NCBI RefSeq assembly: GCF_021311115.1 | Contig: NZ_JAJTNP010000001.1 | Location: 372,001 to 436,000 of the forward strand | Direction of reading: 5' to 3' | DNA length: 64,000 nucleotides | Source of the DNA: Chryseobacterium gwangjuense | GTDB taxonomy: Bacteria > Bacteroidota > Bacteroidia > Flavobacteriales > Weeksellaceae | Shown: piece by piece, positions 4,002-23,464 of the stretch | How positions within the stretch are numbered: the first letter of the stretch is position 1 | How the letters are laid out: each line of letters starts with the position of its first letter | The notes under the pieces: generated by a model | What the model was told of the DNA's origin: nothing | The model's input: the letters and a program-made list of their open reading frames with translations, nothing else | Databases searched by the model: none | Translations under genes and position numbers: made by a program

Positions 4002-4397
4002 ATGGAAACACCAAACAAATCACAAAAAAGAAACAAAATCATCTATTGGATCTTTACCCTTTGGATGTCTTTAGGAATGGCTTCAACAGCCATTGTTCAA
4101 TTAATGAAAAACAAAGATGAACTAGCCAATTTCACCAATCTCGGCTACCCTTCTTATTTAATGATCATTATCGGAGTCTGGAAAATATTGGGCGTTATCA
4201 CTGTTTTAATCCCCAAATTTCCTTTACTAAAAGAATGGGCATACGCAGGTTTTTTCTTTGTGATGTCCGGAGCGGTTATTTCGCATATTATTGTTAATGA
4301 TCCGTTTAGCAAAACTTTTCCGGCAATTTTATTGCTTGTGTTAGTAATTATTTCTTGGTATTTTAGACCTGCCGATAGAAAACTCTCTGTAAATTAA
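4002..4397 (+). CDS. DoxX-like integral membrane protein
   Basis: 131 residues with four predicted membrane segments (about residues 14-34, 52-74, 79-98 and 103-121) and a charged N-terminus. The pattern YWIFTLWMSLGMASTAIVQL, then LGYPSYLMIIIGVWKILGVI, then KEWAYAGFFFVMSGAVISHI is typical of the DoxX-like family found beside AHSA1 genes. A role in redox or membrane stress is suggested for DoxX relatives, but no active site is visible here. Gaps of 18 bases before and 26 bases after place it inside the ArsR-led operon. Confidence 0.88.
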   Translation: METPNKSQKRNKIIYWIFTLWMSLGMASTAIVQLMKNKDELANFTNLGYPSYLMIIIGVWKILGVITVLIPKFPLLKEWAYAGFFFVMSGAVISHIIVNDPFSKTFPAILLLVLVIISWYFRPADRKLSVN

Positions 4398-4423
4398 TCC
4401 TGATCACCATAACAAAATTAAAT

Positions 4424-4981
4424 ATGAAAAAAAAGAAACTTTCCACCACACAAAACGAAGAGCTTTTAAAAGTTCTGAAAACCCGTTTTGAGAAAAATAT
4501 GAGCCGTCACAAAGGAATGCATTGGGATAAAATTCAGGAAAAACTGGAGAAAAGCCCGGAAAAAATATGGTCTTTAAACGAAATGGAAGAAACAGAAGGC
4601 GACCCCGACGTCGTGAGCTACGACAAAAAAACAGACGAATACCTTTTCTTCGATTGTTCCCCTGAAAGTCCGAAGCGCCGAAGCCTTTGCTACGATTATC
4701 CTGCCTGGGAAGCCAGAAAAGCGAATAAACCGGAAAATAATGTTATTGACAAAGCTTCAGAAATGGGGATAGAGCTACTCACTGAAGAACAATATCGCCA
4801 ACTCCAGGAATTAGGAAAATTTGATCTGAAAACTTCAAGTTGGATACAAACTCCTGCAGCGATCAGAGAATTAGGCGGAGCCATTTTCTGTGACCGACGT
4901 TATAATACGGTTTTTACCTATCATAACGGAGCGGATTCTTATTATGCAGCGAGAGGTTTCAGAGGATGTCTGAAGGTTTAA
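4424..4981 (+). CDS. DUF4256 domain protein
   Basis: 185 residues matching DUF4256 over most of the length: GMHWDKIQEKLEKSPEKIWSL, then EETEGDPDVV, FFDCSPESPKRRSLCYD, and a C-terminal GGAIFCDRRYNTVFTYHNGADSYYAARGFRG. No signal peptide or membrane segment is present, so it is probably cytoplasmic. The family has no known activity; the conserved Cys, Asp and Arg residues hint at an enzyme but prove nothing. It is the last closely spaced gene of the ArsR cluster. Confidence 0.85.
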   Translation: MKKKKLSTTQNEELLKVLKTRFEKNMSRHKGMHWDKIQEKLEKSPEKIWSLNEMEETEGDPDVVSYDKKTDEYLFFDCSPESPKRRSLCYDYPAWEARKANKPENNVIDKASEMGIELLTEEQYRQLQELGKFDLKTSSWIQTPAAIRELGGAIFCDRRYNTVFTYHNGADSYYAARGFRGCLKV

Positions 4982-5056
4982 TTTTTTACAATCATTCAAT
5001 AATAAAATGATTATTTTAGCAACTTCGAAATTTAGCTAACCCAACAAAAAAGGATT

Positions 5057-5557
5057 ATGAAAAAGTTGATCTTATTAAGTTCACTATCAGTTTTTTTAAT
5101 GAACTGCAATAAAAAGACAGAAACGGCAGCTCCAAAAGCAGAAACAGATTCTACAGCAACCACAGAAGCGGTAATTGATACTTTAGGACCAAAATCATTC
5201 TGTTATATGGGAGTAACCGGAAAAGACTCTGTATTTGCCAGTATTGATGACAATTTGGGAACCATTACCGGAAAAATGTCTTACAAAAACGCTGAGAAAG
5301 ACAGTAATAAAGGTGATATTTCAGGTTATAAATCAGGAGATACATTAAAATTAACTTATGAATTTGAATCTGAAGGCAAAAAAAGCGCAAGAGATATTTT
5401 CTTCATTCAAAAAGATAATTCATTAGTAGAAGGTATTGGAGCTCATAAAGAAGAAAACGGACAGGTAAAATATGCCAGTGAGAAAAACATCAGTTATAAT
5501 GATGGCCAAAAACTGGAAAAAGCCGATTGTAATCTTGTAAATAAAGGTTTAAAATAA
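5057..5557 (+). CDS. Small secreted lipoprotein, function unknown
   Basis: 166 residues. The N-terminus MKKLILLSSLSVFLMNCNKK is a lipoprotein signal with lipobox LMNC, so the mature protein should be membrane-anchored through Cys17. A Thr/Ala/Glu-rich linker follows, then a predicted beta-rich domain (FCYMGVTGKDSVFASIDDN; GTITGKMSYKNAEKDSNKGDISG; DTLKLTYEFESEGKKSARDIFF). I do not recognise the family. It is separated from DUF4256 by 75 bases and followed by a strong terminator. Confidence 0.75.
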   Translation: MKKLILLSSLSVFLMNCNKKTETAAPKAETDSTATTEAVIDTLGPKSFCYMGVTGKDSVFASIDDNLGTITGKMSYKNAEKDSNKGDISGYKSGDTLKLTYEFESEGKKSARDIFFIQKDNSLVEGIGAHKEENGQVKYASEKNISYNDGQKLEKADCNLVNKGLK

Positions 5558-5563
5558 CGAAAA

Positions 5564-5591
5564 ATGCAACTTAGTTAAGTTGCATTTTTTT
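5564..5591. terminator. Intrinsic terminator between convergent genes
   Basis: A perfect 9-base stem (ATGCAACTT 5564-5572, AAGTTGCAT 5577-5585) with AGTT loop is followed by a T-run. The T-run overlaps the stop codon of the minus-strand threonine aldolase gene (5590-5592). Confidence 0.85.
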
Positions 5592-6621
5592 ATAGTTCTG
5601 CGTTGATAATTTCAATAAATTCATTTACAGGTTCATCCTGAGTATTCCAGGAAGTAATAAGCCTGATTGCTGAAAAATTTTCATCTATTTTTTTCCAGAC
5701 ATAAAATTCAAACTTTTCGGATAGTTTTTGAATAAGTTCATTGCTTAAAATCGGGAAAATCTGGTTGGTATACGTATCCGAAAGAAACTGTACTCCTTTT
5801 TCTTTCATCGCATTTTTAATTTTCATGGCCTGCTGATTCGCTTGTTTTGCCAAATCAAAATAAAGGTCGTTTTTCATCAATTCCAAGAACTGAATTCCTA
5901 ATAATCTTCCTTTTGCCAGCAATGCTCCTTTCTGTTTAATATTGAAAGCAAAATCCTGTTGAAGTTCATGATTATTAATGACAATAGCTTCACCAATCAA
6001 GGCTCCGTTTTTAGTTCCTCCCAAATAGAAAACATCCGTAAGTTCCGCTACTTTTTCTAGCGTCAGATCACTGATTTCGGAAGTTAAACCATGTCCCATT
6101 CTCGCGCCATCCATAAATAGAAACAAATTGTTTTCTTTACAGAATTTCGAGAGTTCTTCCAGTTCTTTTAAAGTATAAATCGTACCCAATTCTGTAGAAT
6201 TCGAAATATACACCAACTTCGGCATGACCTGATGCGGAACATTTTTATGATTTTCCAGAACCGGAATGATATCTTCCGGACTTAGTTTTCCGTCCACTTT
6301 TTCTATACCTAAAATCTTGTGTCCGGTTGCTTCAATTGCTCCTGTTTCATTATTGAGAATATGTCCCGTGGATGCAGAAATTGCACATTGATAAGGTCTT
6401 AAAATGGAAGAAATTACAATTAAATTAGCCTGAGTTCCCCCAGAAACAAGATAGACTTCCGAGTCTGTTTTTTTAATTCTTTGTTTAATTAATTCCTTAG
6501 CCTGTAAAGAATACCCGTCTTCTCCATAACCTGCCTGCTGATCTGTATTATGCTCTAAAAGAGCCTGTAAAATAGTAGGATGACAGCCCTCCGAATAATC
6601 GTTTTTGAATGAAAATTTCAT
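5590..6621 (-). CDS. ltaE: Low-specificity L-threonine aldolase
   Basis: A 343-residue fold-type I PLP enzyme of the threonine aldolase/beta-eliminating lyase family, cleaving L-threonine or L-allo-threonine to glycine and acetaldehyde. Visible features are FSFKNDYSEGCHPTIL at the N-terminus, VSGGTQAN (59-66) in the PLP phosphate loop, FMDGARMGHG (169-178) with the cofactor-binding Asp171, and GGTKNGA with the Schiff-base lysine at Lys204. The length is normal for the family. It is monocistronic, convergent with the lipoprotein gene and divergent from the DtxR-type regulator 85 bases away. Family assignment is firm; exact substrate preference is inferred. Confidence 0.9.
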   Translation of the reverse strand: MKFSFKNDYSEGCHPTILQALLEHNTDQQAGYGEDGYSLQAKELIKQRIKKTDSEVYLVSGGTQANLIVISSILRPYQCAISASTGHILNNETGAIEATGHKILGIEKVDGKLSPEDIIPVLENHKNVPHQVMPKLVYISNSTELGTIYTLKELEELSKFCKENNLFLFMDGARMGHGLTSEISDLTLEKVAELTDVFYLGGTKNGALIGEAIVINNHELQQDFAFNIKQKGALLAKGRLLGIQFLELMKNDLYFDLAKQANQQAMKIKNAMKEKGVQFLSDTYTNQIFPILSNELIQKLSEKFEFYVWKKIDENFSAIRLITSWNTQDEPVNEFIEIINAEL

Positions 6622-14363: not shown

Positions 14364-14453
14364 TTGTCATTCTGAACGCAGCAACGCGGAGTGAAGAATC
14401 TCAATTCGCATTTCAAAAGTTTAAAGAGATTCCTCCTTCTGTCGGAATGACAA
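14364..14453. repeat. Dispersed palindromic element (TTGTCATTCTGA...TCGGAATGACAA)
   Basis: 90 bases bounded by 12-base inverted ends with one mismatch (TTGTCATTCTGA 14364-14375; TCGGAATGACAA 14442-14453). Inside lie GAAGAATCTC and GAGATTC. I know this TCATTCTGA/AAGAATCTC pattern as a common intergenic repeat in Flavobacteriia. A partial copy occurs in a coding gene at 34947-34980. The element supplies a false upstream ATG (14447) to the FAD monooxygenase frame. Confidence 0.7.
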
Positions 14454-14467
14454 CTAAAAGAAAAATA

Positions 14468-15587
14468 ATGAATTCAATTTCAATCATCGGAGCCGGAATC
14501 GGAGGTTTAACCCTCGGGAACATTCTGAAACAACATCATCTTGATTTTACGATTTACGAATCGGCACCGGAAATAAAACCGGTCGGTTCAGGAATTATGA
14601 TGGCTATCAATGCCATGCAGATTTTTGAAACATTAAGTTTAAAAGAAAAAATTGAAAAAGCAGGGAATACAATTCATGGAATTTCTATTACTGATGAAAA
14701 CTTAAAGCTTCTGTCAAAAACCAACGTTCTTGAGCTTGAAAAAAAGTACAATTCTTGTAATGTAGCGATCCACAGAGCTGATTTACAGAGAATTTTAGCT
14801 GAAAATATGGGGGTTTGAACATCTTGAATTGAATCATTCGCTAAAAACAATTCAAAAGAATGAAAATTACCTTTTAAGCTTTGAAAACGGAACTGAAATT
14901 GAGAGCCAAACAGTTTTCGGTGCAGATGGAATTCACTCAAAAATAAGAAATCAGATGTTTGGAACAGGAAATATTCGTAACACTGAACAAATGTGTTGGA
15001 GAGGTCTGGTTGAGTTTGATCTGCCTGAAAAATTTCATCAGGAAGCTATTGAAGCATGGGGGAAAGGAAAGCGTTTTGGGTTCGTTAAAATGACTGACAG
15101 AAAAATATATTGGTATGCCGTCATCAATAAAAGAATATATAAACGTTATAATAGTTTATCTGAAAATTTTCACGGCTTTCATCCATTAATCTTAGATATT
15201 ATTGATTCTACTTTACAAGAAAATATCATTCTGAATGACATTATAGACTTATCTCCCATTCCGACATGGTATTCTGAAAATCTTTGTCTGATCGGTGATG
15301 CTGCACATGCTACCACTCCCAATCTGGGACAAGGTGCTTGTCAGGCCATTGAAGATGCTTATATCATTGGAAAATTATTAGAGAAAAACAAAGACTTCAA
15401 TTTAATCTTTGAGCAGTTTCAGAAAATCAGAAGGACAAAAGTCGATCACGTGGTGAATACCAGTCTGAAAATAGGACAAATCTCCCAATGGGAAAAGGGA
15501 ACTCATCTACGAAATTTTCTCATGAGGTCAGTTCCTGAAAGGATGAATCAGCAAATGGTTGAAAGGGTGATAAAATTAGAAATGTAA
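14468..15587 (+). pseudogene. FAD-dependent monooxygenase, interrupted by a one-base frameshift
   Basis: Two adjoining frames together encode one aromatic-hydroxylase-like flavoprotein of about 372 residues. The first starts at ATG 14468 (MNSISIIGAGIGGLTLGN, Rossmann GxGxxG) and stops at 14818; the second continues from about 14814 with FEHLELNHSLKTIQ, then GADGIHSKIR and LIGDAAHATTPNLGQGACQAIEDA, the FAD ribityl/pyrophosphate motif. The break is at a run of five G (14809-14813): with four G the frame reads NMGFEHLEL without interruption. It may be a pseudogene, a sequencing error or a phase-variable tract. Relatives include TetX-, UbiH- and urate-hydroxylase-like enzymes; the substrate is unknown. 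The longer start at 14447 lies in a repeat element and is rejected. Confidence 0.85.
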
Positions 15588-15608: not shown

Positions 15609-17168
15609 CTACAATTCATTCAAATACTGAGAAAGGTCTTCTTTAGTATTGGTAAGGTTCATTTTCTTTCTGAGGCGGGTTCGTGAATTTTCTATTGTTT
15701 TAGGAGTAACATTCAGCAGATTGGAAATTTCTTTTGTTGATAATTTAAGTTTAAGCATTGCCGCCAGTCTTTTATCATAATTGGTCAATCCCGGATGTTT
15801 GGCATCCAAATTTTCATAAAACGACTCATGAACATTCAGGAAATGATATTCAAAATCACCCCATGAATCTTGCTTGGTATTGATCTTAATTTCATTCACA
15901 ATCCTTGAAACTTCATCAATTTCACTGTCATTAACCTTGGATTTTAATACATTGATCTGCTCCAGAATAGATTTAAAGATTTCTTCAATCTTAGACTGCT
16001 CCATAGATTTATAGACCAGCAATTTCTCCTTCATCTGGTTATCAATTTCCAGTTCTCTTTCTCTGTTTTCTATAAGTTTTTTCTCAAGTCTAAGCTTCTC
16101 GGCTTTATTTCTGAAATTAAAAAGGAACAAAATACAGATCGCGACTACCAACAGAAGAATAATGAACATAACAATATACAGTGTATTCTTACGATCCTGC
16201 TCTATTTTATTGAGTCTTTGCTGGAGTTCATACTCATGTTTTACTTTAAGTCTTTCTACATTGACTGCTTTTTCCTCAACATTCAATAACTCGCGGATCG
16301 AATCATATTTTTTAAACGTTTCAGAAGAAAGTTTATAATCTTTATTAAGCTGATACGCCTTGTATAATGTTCTTAAATAGTTGGTATTATCAAAATTAAT
16401 AGAATTGGAAGCCAAATAATTCCCCACATTTTTAGCATATAATAATGCTTTAACAGGATCTTTGGTTTCAATATAAAAATTGGCAAGATTATAATTGACC
16501 TGATAATTGGATTTTTTGTCTTCAATATTATTTTTTTCTAAAATTTCCTTGGCTTCCAATAAATACGTTTCGGCTTTAGGAGCATTACCATCTATGAAAT
16601 TAAATTTTCCAAAATTTGAAAAAACAAAAGCCTTTAATACAGGATTATCATAATTATCAAAAGCCTTTAAGCCTTTTTCAAAATAATATTTTGAAGAATC
16701 CATTTTTGAAAGTACCAAATAAGCATTTCCGAGATTATTCAATGATTTAACAGTCTCTGCTTCTTTTTTTTGTCCCTGGTAAAAGTTTAAAAGTTTTTTA
16801 TAATACGTAATCGCCCGTTGAGTATCATTGAGTTGAGAATAGATATAGGCGAAAACACCATTTACTTTAGCCGTTTTTTCCGGATCTTTATCTAAGAACA
16901 GATGATTTGCTTTCGAAGCATATTCTAACGCAAGATCAAAATAATTAACATCACTATAAATTTTGGCTACTTCTATATAAAAATCACCTAAATTCTCTTC
17001 AGGAACTTTTTTTTGGGCTTCCTGTATATTAAGTTCTGTTTTTCCCCAATCTTTAAATTTCAGTTCATTCGCTTTATCCAAATATTGTTCATAGCTTTTC
17101 TTCTCTTGCCCGAAGCAAAAAATCACGGAAAAACACAGAAGAAAAACAAAAAATAAACGTACTTTCAT
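15609..17168 (-). CDS. Membrane-anchored TPR protein with C-terminal LuxR-type HTH
   Basis: 519 residues from the ATG at 17168 (MKVRLFFVFLLCFSVIFCFG, signal peptide). Upstream in-frame codons give an implausible leader. About six tetratricopeptide repeats fill residues 25-300, with units such as ETVKSLNNLGNAYLVLSKMDSSKYYFEKGL. A membrane helix lies near residues 330-352, then a coiled coil (RLEKKLIENRERELEID). The C-terminus has a GerE/LuxR-like HTH: YDKRLAAMLKLKLSTKEISNLLNVTPKTIENSRTRLRKKM. The layout, with a periplasmic sensor and cytoplasmic HTH, is common in Bacteroidetes regulators. The target genes and signal are unknown. It is convergent with the monooxygenase and downstream of the copper block. 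Confidence 0.88.
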   Translation of the reverse strand: MKVRLFFVFLLCFSVIFCFGQEKKSYEQYLDKANELKFKDWGKTELNIQEAQKKVPEENLGDFYIEVAKIYSDVNYFDLALEYASKANHLFLDKDPEKTAKVNGVFAYIYSQLNDTQRAITYYKKLLNFYQGQKKEAETVKSLNNLGNAYLVLSKMDSSKYYFEKGLKAFDNYDNPVLKAFVFSNFGKFNFIDGNAPKAETYLLEAKEILEKNNIEDKKSNYQVNYNLANFYIETKDPVKALLYAKNVGNYLASNSINFDNTNYLRTLYKAYQLNKDYKLSSETFKKYDSIRELLNVEEKAVNVERLKVKHEYELQQRLNKIEQDRKNTLYIVMFIILLLVVAICILFLFNFRNKAEKLRLEKKLIENRERELEIDNQMKEKLLVYKSMEQSKIEEIFKSILEQINVLKSKVNDSEIDEVSRIVNEIKINTKQDSWGDFEYHFLNVHESFYENLDAKHPGLTNYDKRLAAMLKLKLSTKEISNLLNVTPKTIENSRTRLRKKMNLTNTKEDLSQYLNEL

Positions 17169-17267
17169 ATCATATAATTCACTATAAAAATATGAAATCA
17201 TTTGAAAGTTCATCTAATTTTTTTTCAGATTTTATAGTCTTTAATAAAACTTTCATCCAATTATTAA

Positions 17268-17310
17268 AAATAAAAGCTGCTTCAACATTGAAACAGCTTT
17301 TATTTTTTTT
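17268..17310 (-). terminator. Hairpin after the multicopper oxidase gene
   Basis: AAATAAAAGCTG (17268-17279) pairs with CAGCTTTTATTT (17294-17305), with TTCAA/TTGAA extending the stem past one mismatch pair. A- and T-runs flank both sides, so it can terminate minus-strand transcription. It ends within two bases of the gene stop. Confidence 0.75.
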
Positions 17311-20092
17311 AATACGTTAAAGTAATTCCGGCTCCCCAACCCATTTCGTTGTCGTAATTTCCGGAAACAGACAAATATTTTTGTAAAATATACCGTAATC
17401 CTGTCGAAAATTCTCCATCTGAATTTAAACTGAAATTTCCTCTCCATCTTCTGGAAATCGGAATATCTTCCCTGCTCAATTCTAGTAAAACTTTTCCGTT
17501 TTGGTCAACACTTGCATCCGCAGTCACCAACATTGGTAAGAGATATTGCATCCCGACAATAAAGTTCGCTTTATTTTTAGATGCTATTTTCTGTCCAAAC
17601 CAACTTTTCTCTCCATGAAAATCCATTCCCATTTTTTCCATCATCTGTCTTTCCATTATTTCATGGTTTTTCTGAATTCTAAAACCTGCATAAGGCAATG
17701 CCCATTGAAATTTTCCTAAAAATCTTCCCACTTTTACATTTCCTTCAAAATGATCGAAATCCCAGTTAGAATGAAACTCATTCAGGTTCGCCCATCTCGG
17801 TCCGAACATCGTCATCGTTTCTGCATGGAGTTTATTAGACTGAAGATCCAGCATCGCCATTGAACTTACCATTCTGTTGTCTTTTAAAAAGTCTTTCCAG
17901 GCCAGTTTTCTATTCGGAAGCTGTGGATTCGGTTTTGAGTTCTCATAACTGAAAATTCTTCCCATTCCCGCCATCATATGGTATAAAATATGACAGTGGA
18001 AAAACCAGTCGCCATCCTGATTGGCTGCAAATTCAATAATATTGGTTTCCATCGGCATGATATCTACTACATTTTTAAGCGGCGAATATTCTCCTTTTGA
18101 ATTAATCAATCTGAAATCATGGCCATGAAGGTGCATCGGATGACGCATCATGGAATTATTATACATCGTAATTCTCAGAATCTCTCCTTTTTTTACCAAT
18201 ATTTTATCTGTTTCCGTAACAGTTTTATTATCTAAAGTCCACAGATAATGATTCATATTTCCTTCCAAAGTAAACTTCAGCTCGCGAACATTTTCTGTAG
18301 GAAGAATTGTTTTTTCAGGAGATTTCAAGATATTATAAGACAATCTTTTAATCGGTTTTTCTTCTGACATATTCATACCTGAATGATTGGAATGGTCTTC
18401 CCCTTCTTTTTCTTTGGTTTTAATTCCCATCATTTCATTGATATGCTTCATTGTCGTCTTTCTTTGAGTTTCTGAAAGTTCAGGATACATCACTTCATTC
18501 ATATCCATCATCTGGTTGCCCATCGTCATATTCATCGGCTTCATATTTCCGCTCATTTCCATCATTCCGTTCATCATTTTCATACCTTCAAAAAGCTTTA
18601 ATCTCGGTAAATCAGGAGCTTCGTTTTTTTCTCCGGAGCCCAGCCAAAGTGAAGCATGACCAATTCGGTCTTCTGAAGTAGCACGGAATTCAAAACTTTT
18701 ATTCTCAGGAATCGTTACTTCAATATCATACGTTTCAGAAACTCCAACAATCAGACGGTCAACTTCCACAGGAACAACATCATTCCCGTCATTTCCAACC
18801 ACTTTTATTTTTCCTCCTCCATAATTCAGCCAGAAATAGGTGGAAGAACCTCCGTTAGCCACTCTTAATCTAACTTTATCACCAGCTTTTAAATGAGGAT
18901 ACTCAGAACTTGGTTGTCCGTTGATAAGAAATTTATCATAATAAACATCACTCACATCCATCGCTTCCATTCTTTTCCATTCATTCAGAGCTTTTGTTCC
19001 GAAGTTTCCGGATTTTATGGCTTCCCAATAACTTTGGACCGCATTTTTCTTAACGGCATACCAATCCGTATTGGCCATGTGAAGTCGTCTTGCGATCTGC
19101 ATAGGATCATCATCACTCCAATCCCCTAATAAAACAGGAATCTCCTTTGTATATTCTGTTTTAGGTTCACCTTCTCTTTTTTGAAAAACCAAAATTCCGT
19201 TCATTCCGATTTGTTCCTGCAAACTTTCATGGGAATGATACCAATAGGTTCCGTTTTGAGAAATTTTAAATTTATACAAATGGGTTTCTCCCGGTTTCAC
19301 AGGTTTTGTAGTAAGATACGGAACTCCGTCATGTTCATTAGGTAAAATCACGCCATGCCAGTGAAAGCCTGTATTCTCCTTCAGCATATTGTGAAGATAA
19401 ATTTCGGCGGTATCTCCTTCTGTAAAATACAAAGTCGGAGCTTGGAGTTTTCCGTTAACAGCAATGGCTCTACGGTTTTTTCCTGTGAAATTGACAATCG
19501 TATCTTTTACATACAAATCATAGCGTACTGTTTTTCCTTTAAAGCTAATCTTGCCATTTTCAGAGTTTCTTTTTAAAACAGAACCTTGAGATTCCAACTG
19601 CAAAGGTTTAGTATCATCTTCTTTCTCAACCAGCTCCATACCGCACTTCGGGCATTTTCCGGGTTTATCAGAGATCACTTCCGGATGCATCGGACAAGTA
19701 TATTTCTGAACCTGAGATTGAGATTTAGGTTGAGGCTTTGATTCTGTTACAGTTTTATTCTGAACAGGCTTTGTAGCATTTACCTTAGTGACTTCTTTAG
19801 CCTTTTTTAGCTTTTTAGCTTCAACTTTATTGTCAACTTTTGCTTTAGGCTTATTTTTAATTTCTGTCGGCTTTGTTTCTGTTTTCGGTAACGTTTTAAC
19901 TTGTGGTTTTGCAATAACTTTCGGTTTTATTACTACTGTTTTTTTTACCAATGTCATTCCGCATTTTGGGCAGTCTCCAGGTTTTGAGGAAACAACTTCA
20001 GGATGCATCGGACACGTATAAAACGTTTTTGTAGTTTGTGCAAAAGAGAAAACAGAGAACAAAAGCATCAGAAATAATATCAATTTTTTCAT
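17309..20092 (-). CDS. Multicopper oxidase fused to two heavy-metal-binding domains and a CopB-like barrel
   Basis: 927 residues from the ATG at 20092 (MKKLILFLMLLFSVFSFA, signal peptide). Two copies of a Cys-Met-His metal-binding domain come first (YTCPMHPEV...CPKCGM at about 26-46 and 132-152), joined by a Lys/Pro/Thr-rich linker. The multicopper oxidase part has all copper motifs: GFHWHG (H244), WYHSH, HPMHLHGHDF and WFFHCHILYHMMAGMGRIF. A Met-rich stretch (MMNGMMEMSGNMKPMNM) resembles CopA copper-binding loops. The last 190 residues (about 739-927) resemble the outer-membrane barrel of CopB (ETMTMFGPRW, GYxx strands, terminal aromatic Tyr). I infer Cu(I) oxidation and sequestration at the cell envelope. 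Confidence 0.88.
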   Translation of the reverse strand: MKKLILFLMLLFSVFSFAQTTKTFYTCPMHPEVVSSKPGDCPKCGMTLVKKTVVIKPKVIAKPQVKTLPKTETKPTEIKNKPKAKVDNKVEAKKLKKAKEVTKVNATKPVQNKTVTESKPQPKSQSQVQKYTCPMHPEVISDKPGKCPKCGMELVEKEDDTKPLQLESQGSVLKRNSENGKISFKGKTVRYDLYVKDTIVNFTGKNRRAIAVNGKLQAPTLYFTEGDTAEIYLHNMLKENTGFHWHGVILPNEHDGVPYLTTKPVKPGETHLYKFKISQNGTYWYHSHESLQEQIGMNGILVFQKREGEPKTEYTKEIPVLLGDWSDDDPMQIARRLHMANTDWYAVKKNAVQSYWEAIKSGNFGTKALNEWKRMEAMDVSDVYYDKFLINGQPSSEYPHLKAGDKVRLRVANGGSSTYFWLNYGGGKIKVVGNDGNDVVPVEVDRLIVGVSETYDIEVTIPENKSFEFRATSEDRIGHASLWLGSGEKNEAPDLPRLKLFEGMKMMNGMMEMSGNMKPMNMTMGNQMMDMNEVMYPELSETQRKTTMKHINEMMGIKTKEKEGEDHSNHSGMNMSEEKPIKRLSYNILKSPEKTILPTENVRELKFTLEGNMNHYLWTLDNKTVTETDKILVKKGEILRITMYNNSMMRHPMHLHGHDFRLINSKGEYSPLKNVVDIMPMETNIIEFAANQDGDWFFHCHILYHMMAGMGRIFSYENSKPNPQLPNRKLAWKDFLKDNRMVSSMAMLDLQSNKLHAETMTMFGPRWANLNEFHSNWDFDHFEGNVKVGRFLGKFQWALPYAGFRIQKNHEIMERQMMEKMGMDFHGEKSWFGQKIASKNKANFIVGMQYLLPMLVTADASVDQNGKVLLELSREDIPISRRWRGNFSLNSDGEFSTGLRYILQKYLSVSGNYDNEMGWGAGITLTY

Positions 20093-20193
20093 ACTATTTC
20101 GAACTTTTATCAAGTTGTACAGCTCATTTTAAAAATTAAAGTCAATTCTAACTTAAGCTATACAACTTATTAATTTAAAATAAGATAAATAAA

Positions 20194-20667
20194 CTATTTA
20201 ATCGTTGACTTTACACTTCCACAAGAAAGCATAGAGCTTCCGTAATAAGGATTTACGATTTTAGATTCGTCGCTCAGCCAGCTTCCGTCTGCCATTGGAC
20301 AATACTGAACGTAGATCGGATTTTCTGAAAGCTTAAATTCTTTCGTTAAGCCAATCATATTATCAGAAAGATTGTAAAAAGTTTCTCTTTGAGCGTTGAT
20401 TGTCTTCGCATCTGAAATTGCAGTAGCGTCTTTTCTAAGGATGTTTAAATTTCCTTCTGAAACCTGCTTATAATCAATTGCTGAAGCGGTTTTAATGAAT
20501 TCTGCCGCTGCTTTCGAGGTTTTATCTGCATCATCTGAAGCCAAAGCTGATTTTATGGCAATATAGTTTTGATACAATTTAGAAACTTGTGCATCTTTTT
20601 TAGATTGTGCTGAAAGAGAAAGTACTGAAAATAAAGATAATGCTGCTGTAATGATATATTTTTTCAT
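20194..20667 (-). CDS. DUF3347 periplasmic copper-associated protein
   Basis: 157 residues with a signal peptide (MKKYIITAALSLFSVLSLSA). A helical DUF3347 domain contains LYQNYIAIKSALASDDADKTSKAA, and the C-terminus holds YCPMADGSWLSDES and NPYYGSSMLSCG, the conserved Cys/Met motif found in DUF3347 proteins next to CusB-type efflux genes. The Cys-Pro-Met and late Cys suggest soft-metal binding. It lies between the HYC_CC_PP gene and the multicopper oxidase on the same strand (gaps of about 100 bases), which supports a copper role. The exact function is not known. Confidence 0.87.
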   Translation of the reverse strand: MKKYIITAALSLFSVLSLSAQSKKDAQVSKLYQNYIAIKSALASDDADKTSKAAAEFIKTASAIDYKQVSEGNLNILRKDATAISDAKTINAQRETFYNLSDNMIGLTKEFKLSENPIYVQYCPMADGSWLSDESKIVNPYYGSSMLSCGSVKSTIK

Positions 20668-20775: not shown

Positions 20776-21153
20776 CTAAATTCTAAAATTACAATGATTA
20801 ATAAAGATGGGAACCGACCGGTTTTCCGGCGGTGCATTGATTTGAATCTGAGTAAATTTTGTAACTGAAAAAGATCGGTCAACAAAGAAAAATTCATGAG
20901 TCTGAACTTCCAGAATTTGTTTTAAAACATCAATTTTAAGAAAATCTGATTTTTGGGAATCGTCAACTTTTACGACTTTGATTTCGGTTTTACAACAGTC
21001 TTTTTTGGTTTTAACACCGCATTTGCTGCAGACATCATCAACTTTCTGACTTATAGAAGCCAATTCCTTCATACAATAATGTACACTGAAAGCTGCCCCG
21101 GAAGAAAATCCGAAGTAGAAAACAGAAAACAATATTGCCAGAAACTTTTTCAT
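20776..21153 (-). CDS. HYC_CC_PP family small secreted protein
   Basis: 125 residues from the ATG at 21153 (MKKFLAILFSVFYFGFSSGA, signal peptide); upstream codons in the longer frame lie in non-coding DNA. It contains the three name-giving motifs: VHYC (about residue 25), a Cys-rich VCSKCGVKTKKDCCKTE, and INAPPENRS near the end. The family occurs beside metal-handling and TonB-receptor genes in Bacteroidetes. The seven cysteines suggest metal binding or disulfides. A box TAACTTTG (minus strand, 21166-21159) ends only 5 bases before the ATG, so transcription may start almost at the start codon. Confidence 0.85.
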   Translation of the reverse strand: MKKFLAILFSVFYFGFSSGAAFSVHYCMKELASISQKVDDVCSKCGVKTKKDCCKTEIKVVKVDDSQKSDFLKIDVLKQILEVQTHEFFFVDRSFSVTKFTQIQINAPPENRSVPIFINHCNFRI

Positions 21154-21223
21154 TGAGACAAAGTTAAAAATATCTTTAATATGAAGGTTATAGAATTTTG
21201 TATTCTTGTTATAAAATTTGGGA

Positions 21224-21261
21224 AAGACAAAAGCTCCTGATATTTCAGAAGCTTTTGTCTT
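21224..21261 (-). terminator. Hairpin terminating the TonB receptor gene
   Basis: AAGACAAAAGCT (21224-21235) pairs with AGCTTTTGTCTT (21250-21261), with an inner CTGA/TCAG extension. The distal arm overlaps the receptor stop codon. It suggests that the copper genes downstream have their own promoter. Confidence 0.75.
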
Positions 21262-23464
21262 ATAATTTAAATTCAAGTTTAACATTGAAGAACCTTCCTG
21301 TCAGACGAACCGGAACCGGATACATCAGGTTGGAATTATAATCGGTAATCCATTGGTTGGCAACTGTATTATTAATATTAAATGCATTAAACACCTGAAC
21401 TCCTAATGTCAACTCTTCGAAATTGCTCCAGAAACCGTATGTTTTTTTATTGTCTTTTCTATCAATAAATACTTTAGAAAGCCCAAGGTCTACCCTTTTA
21501 TAGGAAGGAAGTGTATTCTGATATTGATAAGGATCTGTAAACACAGGTGCTCCGTTTGGCAATCCCATTGCATATACCAAAGTAAGGTTTACACGCATGG
21601 AAGGAAATCTCGGCATATAATCCTGATAAAACATTGCAAATCTTAGTCTTTGGTCAGTAGGTCTCGGAATATTTCCTCTTCCGTCAATATTTTCATAAAC
21701 TCTTGCATAACTTGCAGATAACCATGAATCTACGCCCGGAACAAATTCACCGAATAATCTGGTATCAATTCCATAAGCATACCCAGAAGCATTATTCTTT
21801 CCTGAATAACGGATTCTAACATTATCCATATAATAAGGAATAAGGTTATCCATTTTTTTGTAATAAGCTTCAGTAGTCAGTTTAAATGGTCGGTCATACA
21901 TCTCAAACTCATAATCATTCGCCAATACAAGTTGGATTGAGCGCTGAGATTTTATATCAGAGTTGAAATTACCTTCTAAATCTTTAATTTCTTTATAAAA
22001 AGGAGATTGGTAATAAATACCTCCATTCACTTTAAACAACATATCCGACTCCCAATCCGGTTTTATCGCAAACTGGAATCTCGGAGAGAATATGGTTTCT
22101 TTATTGAAACTCCAATTAGCAACTCTTGCTCCTACATTTAAAAATACTTTACTGCTTCCCCAATAGAATTTTTGGGAATATTGTGCGTAAGCTGATAATC
22201 TGGTCGGCTGAATATGATTCTTCCCTGAGATGCTGTAAAACAACTCAAGATCTGCCGCATTAAGTCTAGGATCGTTAATATTTGCAGGGGTCGGAATACT
22301 ATAACCGGCAGAATCTACCAATTTCCATTCGTTCGTAAGATCTTTCAGGTTTTCTTTTTCATATTTAAAACCAACTTCAAAATCCGAATTCACGTTAGGT
22401 GAAAAACGTGCTCTGAACTGCGTTCCGTAAGTTCTTACAAAAAGATCATTTCTTGCACTTTCAATCTGACCACCTACATCGTATGAAACAACAGGAGCTC
22501 CGGTTGCCTGATCGAATGTCTGAAGTTCATATTGGGAATGAATGGTATAATATTCTTTTTCTCTATTCTGGTACGAAAAACTGTCTAAAGTAAATCTCCA
22601 CTTATCTGACGGTTTATAATTCATAGAGAATGTTCCCATCATATTCTTATACATATCCTGTTCTCTTCCTGCATATCCGATATTAACCATAATAGGCTGC
22701 TGAAGAGTTCCAAAGGTTACGCTTTTTGACTTAGGAACCATTTCGTAATCATTCTTAGAGTAATATCCTATGAATGAAAGTGAAAATTTGTCGCTGATAT
22801 GATAATTGATATACGACTGAAAATCCCAATACGTAGGGTTGAAATCCGTATCTTCATTTAAGGTATTCAATACTAAATTGGTATTTCTGTACCTTCCTGA
22901 AAATAAAGCGGTCAGTTTCTTATTTTTTGAAGCTAACCCAGTAGTTAATCTTCCTCCGATAAGACTTGCTTCTCCCGAAAGTTCTAATTTTTTAGGCTCT
23001 CTGTAATAAATGTTCAAAGCTGAAGACATTTTGTCTCCATATCTTGCTTCAAAACCTCCTGCCGAAAAATTAACCGTAGAGACCATATCCGGATTAATGA
23101 TACTCATTCCCTCCTGCTGAGAGTTTCTAATCAGGAAAGGTCTGTAGATTTCAATATCATTAATATAGATCAGGTTTTCGTCATAGTTTCCACCACGAAC
23201 CATATATTGAGAAGAAAGCTCAGTATTTGAATTTACGGAAGGTAAGGTTTTAAGAATTCCTTCGATACCTCCTGCAAGACTCGCAACATTCTGAGCATCT
23301 TTTGCTGAAATTTTTACAGCGGAAAGGTCGGTTGTTTTTCCTGATTGTCTCTGGAAAACGACTTCCTCTATATTGGTAACTCTAGTTGTAGTATCTTTCT
23401 TTTTTGTCTGAGAAAATACAAACAGAGGAGCCATTAAGCTCAGTGGTAAAACTAGTTTTTTCAA
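21260..23464 (-). CDS. TonB-dependent outer-membrane receptor
   Basis: 734 residues with signal peptide (MKKLVLPLSLMAPLFVFS). A plug domain runs from about residue 30 to 150 (TNIEEVVFQRQ; GGIEGILKTLPSVNSNTELSSQYMVRGGNYDENLIYINDIEI; PDMVSTVNFSAGGFEARYGDKMSSALNI). A 22-strand-type barrel follows with alternating aromatic residues, ending in FNVKLEFKL. No N-terminal CarboxypepD_reg repeat is present, so it is not SusC-like. It imports a ligand such as a metal chelate using TonB energy. The copper-linked genes downstream suggest a metal ligand, but the hairpin between them weakens that link. kdsA lies 44 bases upstream. Confidence 0.9.
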   Translation of the reverse strand: MKKLVLPLSLMAPLFVFSQTKKKDTTTRVTNIEEVVFQRQSGKTTDLSAVKISAKDAQNVASLAGGIEGILKTLPSVNSNTELSSQYMVRGGNYDENLIYINDIEIYRPFLIRNSQQEGMSIINPDMVSTVNFSAGGFEARYGDKMSSALNIYYREPKKLELSGEASLIGGRLTTGLASKNKKLTALFSGRYRNTNLVLNTLNEDTDFNPTYWDFQSYINYHISDKFSLSFIGYYSKNDYEMVPKSKSVTFGTLQQPIMVNIGYAGREQDMYKNMMGTFSMNYKPSDKWRFTLDSFSYQNREKEYYTIHSQYELQTFDQATGAPVVSYDVGGQIESARNDLFVRTYGTQFRARFSPNVNSDFEVGFKYEKENLKDLTNEWKLVDSAGYSIPTPANINDPRLNAADLELFYSISGKNHIQPTRLSAYAQYSQKFYWGSSKVFLNVGARVANWSFNKETIFSPRFQFAIKPDWESDMLFKVNGGIYYQSPFYKEIKDLEGNFNSDIKSQRSIQLVLANDYEFEMYDRPFKLTTEAYYKKMDNLIPYYMDNVRIRYSGKNNASGYAYGIDTRLFGEFVPGVDSWLSASYARVYENIDGRGNIPRPTDQRLRFAMFYQDYMPRFPSMRVNLTLVYAMGLPNGAPVFTDPYQYQNTLPSYKRVDLGLSKVFIDRKDNKKTYGFWSNFEELTLGVQVFNAFNINNTVANQWITDYNSNLMYPVPVRLTGRFFNVKLEFKL

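Follow-up and report, generated by a model that had tools for sequence, protein, structure and literature searches.

In proteobacterial PcoA-PcoB or CopA-CopB systems, a multicopper oxidase and a barrel protein are encoded by separate genes, and the barrel of PcoB consists of 12 strands, with both ends of the chain facing the periplasm (PMC9210255). The reports disagree on the direction of copper flow: import through PcoB was argued since an outward flow lacks energy (PMC9210255), whereas PcoB of Caulobacter was assigned to efflux; there, the stability of PcoA depends on the N-terminal tail of PcoB, and docking of PcoA on PcoB was proposed (PMC12509749). Fusions of both halves are already on record: a paper of 2012 mentions in one sentence that PcoA and PcoB are fused in five Legionella species (PMC3548706), and in the oxidase G2EDV6 of Bizionia argentinensis (Flavobacteriaceae) the C-terminal residues 611-809 were called a 'porin-like region' with 'some similarity to PcoB' (PMC11213822), while the available part of PMC7459592 describes no oxidase-barrel fusion. 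In this study, a window of 64,000 nucleotides from Chryseobacterium gwangjuense (assembly GCF_021311115.1, contig NZ_JAJTNP010000001.1, positions 372,001 to 436,000; the whole stretch of DNA analysed) was found to carry a minus-strand open reading frame (ORF, 17309-20113; 934 codons open from TTG, or 927 amino acids from the ATG at 20092) for such a fusion. As proposed in a first-pass annotation made from the sequence alone, two heavy-metal-binding domains (HMBDs), a CopA/PcoA-type oxidase and a CopB/PcoB-related barrel stand in one chain, which was borne out by Pfam, fold comparison and profiles.

Compared with the proteobacterial proteins, the window protein shares the order of oxidase and barrel, the 12 strands of the predicted barrel and, in the alignment, several acidic pore residues together with R215. 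It differs by being one chain, by a barrel beyond the reach of the Pfam family CopB, by the two HMBDs and by a Sec instead of a twin-arginine translocation (Tat) signal. CueO and laccases share the fold and the ligands of the oxidase, and they have neither a barrel nor an HMBD. The Legionella proteins represent the same kind of fusion in another phylum, likened here by description only. Also by description, G2EDV6 resembles the window protein in its signal peptide, three cupredoxin domains and PcoB-like C-terminal end; unlike here, it is covered by one sentence on one species, is called periplasmic by the authors, and is given no HMBDs in the extract available (PMC11213822). The statement of the first-pass annotation that oxidase and CopB are separate proteins in Pseudomonas-type systems agrees with copA followed by copB in the loci L131-L135, but in view of the Legionella and Bizionia fusions it does not hold universally. 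New with respect to the literature examined (subscription papers lay outside its coverage) are how widely the fusion occurs, its strictly either-or relation with separate copA and copB genes, the near-constant linker, the two HMBDs and the profile evidence.

Domain order and relationship of the barrel to CopB

The oxidase half scored above the Pfam cut-offs for Cu-oxidase_3 (PF07732, 125.4 bits), Cu-oxidase (PF00394, 47.3 bits) and Cu-oxidase_2 (PF07731, 110.5 bits), and a PF07731 search of the genome found the window protein as the only oxidase. Its copper ligands are invariant in all 24 aligned full-length sequences (window protein included), as are ten methionines of a Met-rich segment within the oxidase region. 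The best NCBIfam match was CopA (TIGR01480) with 369.4 bits, below the cut-off of 478.95, and the oxidase is therefore termed CopA-related. In front of it, the HMBD family PF19335 matched twice (104.4 bits; cut-off 23.6). Both domains are separated by a Lys/Pro-rich stretch with 22 Lys in 77 residues, in which residues 55-127 had a predicted local distance difference test score (pLDDT) below 50. On visual inspection, 23 relatives likewise start with a hydrophobic signal for export.

For the window protein, no Pfam family at E<=1 had its best stretch past residue 724 of 934. The first-pass annotation had placed a CopB-like barrel there and suggested structure prediction as a check. AlphaFold2 on 26 related tails gave 12 strands for the last 202 residues (pLDDT 80.6), a full-length model again gave 12 barrel strands, and both models contain a helix before strand 1. 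The top match of the barrel model in the PDB was PcoB, entry 7pge (Foldseek E 6.5e-6, probability 1.00, TM 0.54/0.55; runner-up row E 5.9e-4). The VIA comparison also placed 7pge first, with Z 15.6 and a root-mean-square deviation of 3.2 over 155 aligned residues. The likeness to the PcoB fold is thus one of the predicted model.

The relationship was also compared at the level of profiles. With hhalign, a profile of 49 non-redundant fused tails matched one of 21 CopB sequences with probability 94.5, E 8e-8 and a score of 55.2, the last barrel strands being poorly aligned; 100 column shuffles reached at most 24.7, and reversed controls 18.0 and 18.6. This similarity beyond the controls, computed from profiles, indicates that the C-terminal part is a strongly diverged relative of CopB/PcoB. 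Pfam with the barrel alone gave only weak porin, outer-membrane protein and CopB scores, with CopB in 1 of 26 tails (best E 0.075). Among ten divergent relatives scanned, one (L202) had a weak direct match to PF05275 (CopB; E 0.0029, 17.6 bits). Since no score exceeded the curated cut-off of 27 bits, the barrel is called CopB-related and not a member of PF05275; the CopB match expected from the first-pass annotation was obtained from the deeper profile-profile comparison and not from the direct PF05275 search.

For the pore, the Cu-binding and gate residues D97-E207, E130-E223 and N115-Q179-E187 of PcoB were compared by aligning the 49 fused tails to PcoB; the match of the first strand is least certain, and N115 was not mapped. 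E207 corresponds to E150 of the tail (E in 37/49), D209 to D151 (D in 38/49) and E130 to E47 (E in 27/49). Opposite D97, position D24 is D or E in 21 tails, and position 24 or 26 is acidic in 38. R215 is matched by R157 (R in 46 tails) and Q179 by Q124 (Q in 10). Judged by these residues, the pore would be only partly that of PcoB.

Distribution of fused and separate forms

A scan of named sequences found 533 relatives, of which the best 80 were kept, so this set leans to close relatives. A single frame covers oxidase and barrel in 79 of these 80 loci; in the lone exception, L108, the neighbouring genes are also split over several frames. In L051-L108 (57 loci of Chryseobacterium and one of Weeksellaceae), the tail is 79-92% identical to that of the window protein. 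Among 99 relatives, own genome included, 55 matched, with frames of 742-954 amino acids save one fragment of 40 amino acids; within the genus, 53 of 60 genomes had a match and 7 had none. The first-pass annotation had named two outcomes that would speak against it, namely a C-terminal part that failed to match CopB or to form a barrel, and a fusion broken by frameshift in related genomes. A barrel is predicted, its profile matches CopB and the fusion is kept in one frame, with the caveat of the negative PF05275 search.

In a sample of 296 genomes of the phylum, the barrel was detected in 51 genomes and 27 of 139 genera; it is thus common yet far from universal. The matches numbered 62, and 57 of them lie in frames of 710-978 amino acids, the other five being contig-end cuts, broken copies or fragments. 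Broken or partial copies were seen in L108 and G360, as an additional copy in G177, close to the end of a contig in G349, truncated by a contig end in G143 and as a fragment of 47 amino acids in G100. A CopA-like oxidase at E<=1e-30 is present in 72 of the 296 genomes, i.e. the same 51 with barrel and 21 others. The best oxidase piece is at least 43% identical in the 51 barrel genomes (G143, G349 and G360 having only cut or broken copies) and 35-38% identical in the 21 others, where it lies in frames of 598-732 amino acids. The exception is a frame of 935 amino acids in G106, beside which CopB has its own frame of 259 amino acids. PF05275 was found over the cut-off in all 21 genomes with a separate oxidase, and CopB adjoins the oxidase in all eight inspected. 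In this sample, fused and separate forms are strictly either-or (51 versus 21 genomes, no overlap), so each oxidase-bearing genome has one form or the other. A candidate for a second fusion, CopB in a 714-amino-acid frame of G435, was rejected since the oxidase is in another, overlapping frame.

In a tree of the oxidases, 39 fused rows chosen by their barrel match form one group (support 98/97) beside 16 separate CopA rows; the window protein itself is not in the tree, its nearest rows being L052, L099 and L105. The barrel and oxidase searches of the phylum sample serve as a check that this choice had not overlooked related oxidases lacking a barrel. The separate CopA and CopB of other Bacteroidota families (f27, f37, f39, f43, f49 and f53), standing beside the fused group in the tree, have the same order and are adjacent where inspected; unlike the fusion, they are two genes, with CopB over the Pfam cut-off and an oxidase 35-38% identical in its best piece. 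A single fusion event is the simplest reading, since the other phyla looked at (L131-L135) encode oxidase and barrel separately; by itself, the tree would also fit separate genes arising by fission. The fused form was also found in a metagenome-assembled genome of the Ignavibacteria (L126) and, in the Fusobacteriota, on a plasmid of Ilyobacter (L136), perhaps as a result of transfer. The latter copy (4219-6246, plus strand, on the plasmid pILYOP02 of Ilyobacter polytropus, typed as conjugative) is a diverged fusion; a cupredoxin gene and a two-component system are located close to it. Also, several genomes contain two or three differing fused paralogues, some of them very diverged (G353 with L145 and L195, G173, G231, G188, G061 and G110). 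A scan of viral contigs gave no relatives.

The linker between the last oxidase motif and the first barrel strand, whose start was set by alignment, comprises 31 amino acids in 32 and 24-31 in all of 44 non-redundant relatives, with 5 of 49 rows omitted because their profile match fell short of the barrel start. It is poor in His and Met (median 1, at most 6), whereas the Caulobacter PcoB has a long disordered His/Met-rich tail (PMC12509749). Since one would expect variation in a loose tether, the near-constant length suggests that the oxidase has a set position on the barrel. A specific replacement of a long His/Met docking tail by the fusion has become less likely, as the separate CopB proteins of Bacteroidota also have short N-termini (by a crude start-codon guess, which fails for the proteobacterial rows); the missing tail is thus not special to the fusion. 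At the front end, two HMBDs were counted in 51, one in 6 and none in 1 of the 58 loci L051-L108. The corresponding numbers were 5, 2 and 15 among the 22 loci L109-L130; one HMBD was found in 2 and two in none of the 16 loci L031-L046, and the 19 divergent loci had none (58 partial loci were left out of these counts). Oxidase and barrel are the core unit, and the HMBD front end is variable.

Gene neighborhood

The coordinates of all features are compiled in Table 1. Upstream of the fusion lie genes for a DUF3347 protein, an HYC_CC_PP family protein and a TonB-dependent receptor, present in 57, 56 and 57 of the 58 loci L051-L108, respectively. In 56 of these loci, kdsA, the receptor, the HYC_CC_PP and the DUF3347 gene follow in that order, all upstream on the same strand within at most 5 kb; the two exceptions are a locus cut by a contig end and L108. 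Among the 22 loci L109-L130, a DUF3347 gene precedes the fusion in 19 and is within 300 nucleotides in 10.

Table 1. Features of the fusion gene and its upstream neighbors in the window.
Feature	Positions	Strand	Basis or remark
Whole gene: export signal, two HMBDs, multicopper oxidase, CopB-related barrel	17309..20092	-	927 amino acids from ATG
Sec-type signal peptide (MKKLILFLMLLFSVFSFAQ), without twin-arginine motif	20036..20092	-	From translation
HMBD 1 (YTCPMHPEV...CPKCGM)	19934..20020	-	PF19335, two stretches
HMBD 2	19622..19705	-	PF19335 best stretch, residues 137-164
Multicopper oxidase with HWH, HSH, HPMHLH and HCHxxxHxxxxM copper motifs	17939..19540	-	Pfam and motifs
Met-rich segment within the oxidase region (GMKMMNGMMEMSGNMKPMNMTMGNQMMDMNEVMY)	18485..18586	-	Sequence, alignment of 24
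Oxidase-barrel linker, 31 amino acids, with predicted helix	17870..17962	-	Alignment; helix in both models
Predicted 12-stranded CopB/PcoB-related outer-membrane barrel	17312..17869	-	Model, fold match, profiles
DUF3347 protein with CPM and MxxCG motifs	20194..20667	-	PF11827, 58.2 bits
HYC_CC_PP family protein, Cys-rich	20776..21285	-	NF047658, 38.2 bits (cut-off 28)
TonB-dependent receptor	21260..23464	-	Plug domain

The motifs CPM/CSM and MxxCG, both present in 83 of 84 DUF3347 ORFs counted, are likely metal ligands. In the genome, no CopC, CopD only below the cut-off and no second DUF3347 were found, and on these grounds we guess that the DUF3347 protein may be the copper carrier here, as a candidate for this task in the periplasm. 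The literature search, from which subscription papers were excluded by coverage, gave no paper linking DUF3347 with copper. The slightly overlapping ORFs of the HYC_CC_PP protein and the receptor (20776-23464, minus strand), kept in Chryseobacterium, possibly form a copper uptake pair. Directly downstream of the fusion (15609-17213, minus strand) is the gene of a tetratricopeptide repeat (TPR) protein, one end of which is of the LuxR/GerE DNA-binding type; it seems to have a transmembrane segment and might be a membrane-bound regulator. Further on, the adjacent ORFs 14447-14818 and 14829-15587 (plus strand, different frames) look by eye like the two parts of a single FAD-dependent monooxygenase that a frameshift has split.

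Proposed function and competing explanations

We consider it probable that this single-chain fusion of a CopA/PcoA-related oxidase with a diverged CopB/PcoB-related barrel serves copper protection by coupling periplasmic oxidation to a path for Cu(II). It is the anatomy alone that computation supports (domain order, intact ligands, predicted barrel fold, CopB relationship, conservation in a single frame, common grouping of the fused oxidases in the tree and near-constant linker), and from it we infer the following steps. The chain would be exported by Sec, and its barrel would sit in the outer membrane so that, as in PcoB, each end points to the periplasm; a linker of about 31 amino acids would then keep the oxidase at the barrel mouth on the periplasmic side. 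The two HMBDs on their long Lys/Pro-rich arm, together with the Met-rich segment, may collect periplasmic Cu(I), which the oxidase would convert to Cu(II) by means of oxygen. Lined in part by acids, the barrel could then act as the exit for Cu(II), which we prefer, or as an entry for outside copper under control of the oxidase, and the net effect would be a periplasm protected from copper. The 'sequestering' role given to the protein in the first-pass annotation fared less well: storage by the barrel is unsupported, the solved relative being a Cu(II)-conducting pore (PMC9210255) and the Caulobacter PcoB being reported as an efflux protein (PMC12509749).

Several results weigh against this interpretation of the protein. 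In the full-length model, which is of poor quality (mean pLDDT 65.2, predicted TM score 0.57), the placement of the oxidase on the barrel is not visible. PF05275 matched neither the window protein nor anything in the whole genome at E<=10, a PDB sequence search with the barrel profile gave nothing at E<=10, and hhalign with shallow profiles reached CopB with a probability of only 34 over 46 columns, a result superseded by the deeper profiles. The Foldseek TM to 7pge is only 0.54. Of the PcoB pore acids, E187 is opposite an acid in just 9 of 49 tails and E223 is replaced by N in 39; the loss of E187 need not abolish conductance, since E187A raised the Cu(II) flux in PcoB (PMC9210255). The twin-arginine signal that classical CopA carries is absent from the window protein. 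In VIA, the phospholipase barrel OMPLA is tied with 7pge (Z 14.8), which is to be expected as the PcoB authors report an OMPLA-like fold (PMC9210255). Together with the lacking Pfam match to CopB, this tie would suit another outer-membrane barrel that merely anchors the oxidase and is no relative of CopB. Sequence tells both apart: the fused tails scored 14.2 with an OMPLA profile, albeit one built from 6 sequences and thus shallower than the 21 of CopB, and 55.2 with CopB. Also, the order of oxidase and barrel equals that of copA and copB, and all 72 oxidase-bearing sampled genomes have one form or the other, so that such an anchor appears very improbable.

The 12 C-terminal strands with a predicted helix before the first, and the autotransporter barrels EstA (Z 10.5) and NalP (Z 10.0) in the VIA list, recall a display system in which the oxidase reaches the cell exterior by way of the barrel; with Z values about 5 below that of PcoB, a profile match that goes to CopB and a separate CopA that is periplasmic, we regard this as very improbable. 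Two genes joined by a sequencing or assembly error, for which the broken and partial copies listed above might be taken, are practically out of the question, as an artefact is already refuted by the one long frame, kept in 79 of the 80 named loci and shared by 57 of the 62 phylum-sample matches. More is to be said for import by the same architecture, in which outside Cu(II) enters via the barrel and the tethered oxidase and HMBDs handle its arrival, as proposed for Pco of Escherichia coli. PcoB has an outward-open electronegative funnel, conducts Cu(II) in liposomes and alone sensitises E. coli to copper (PMC9210255), and a TonB-dependent receptor, of an importer type, is conserved upstream. 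In Caulobacter, however, loss of most of the N-terminal region of PcoB raises intracellular copper, which was read as efflux (PMC12509749), and an oxidase would be less needed if only Cu(II) entered; import is possible but on balance unlikely. For the preferred exit, a specific form can be put forward quite tentatively, in the knowledge that it may well be wrong: in an oxidation-coupled discharge of copper, the linker would fix the oxidase over the barrel mouth and Cu(II) would be released straight into the pore. Oxidation would keep the local Cu(II) high, thereby supplying the driving force that an outward flow through PcoB is said to lack (PMC9210255). If true, the fusion would be a natural covalent version of the docking of PcoA on PcoB proposed in PMC12509749.

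The wide occurrence of a covalent oxidase-barrel chain whose linker is nearly constant provides evolutionary evidence for both halves acting next to each other and at a fixed distance. The fusion thereby offers a one-gene system for testing the disputed partnership of oxidase and barrel. The tail matches in plasmid records are named only 'multicopper oxidase domain-containing protein' in 21 of 22 cases, one being unannotated. Many Bacteroidota entries of this name are probably outer-membrane proteins, which matters for their purification and for reading copper resistance from genomes.

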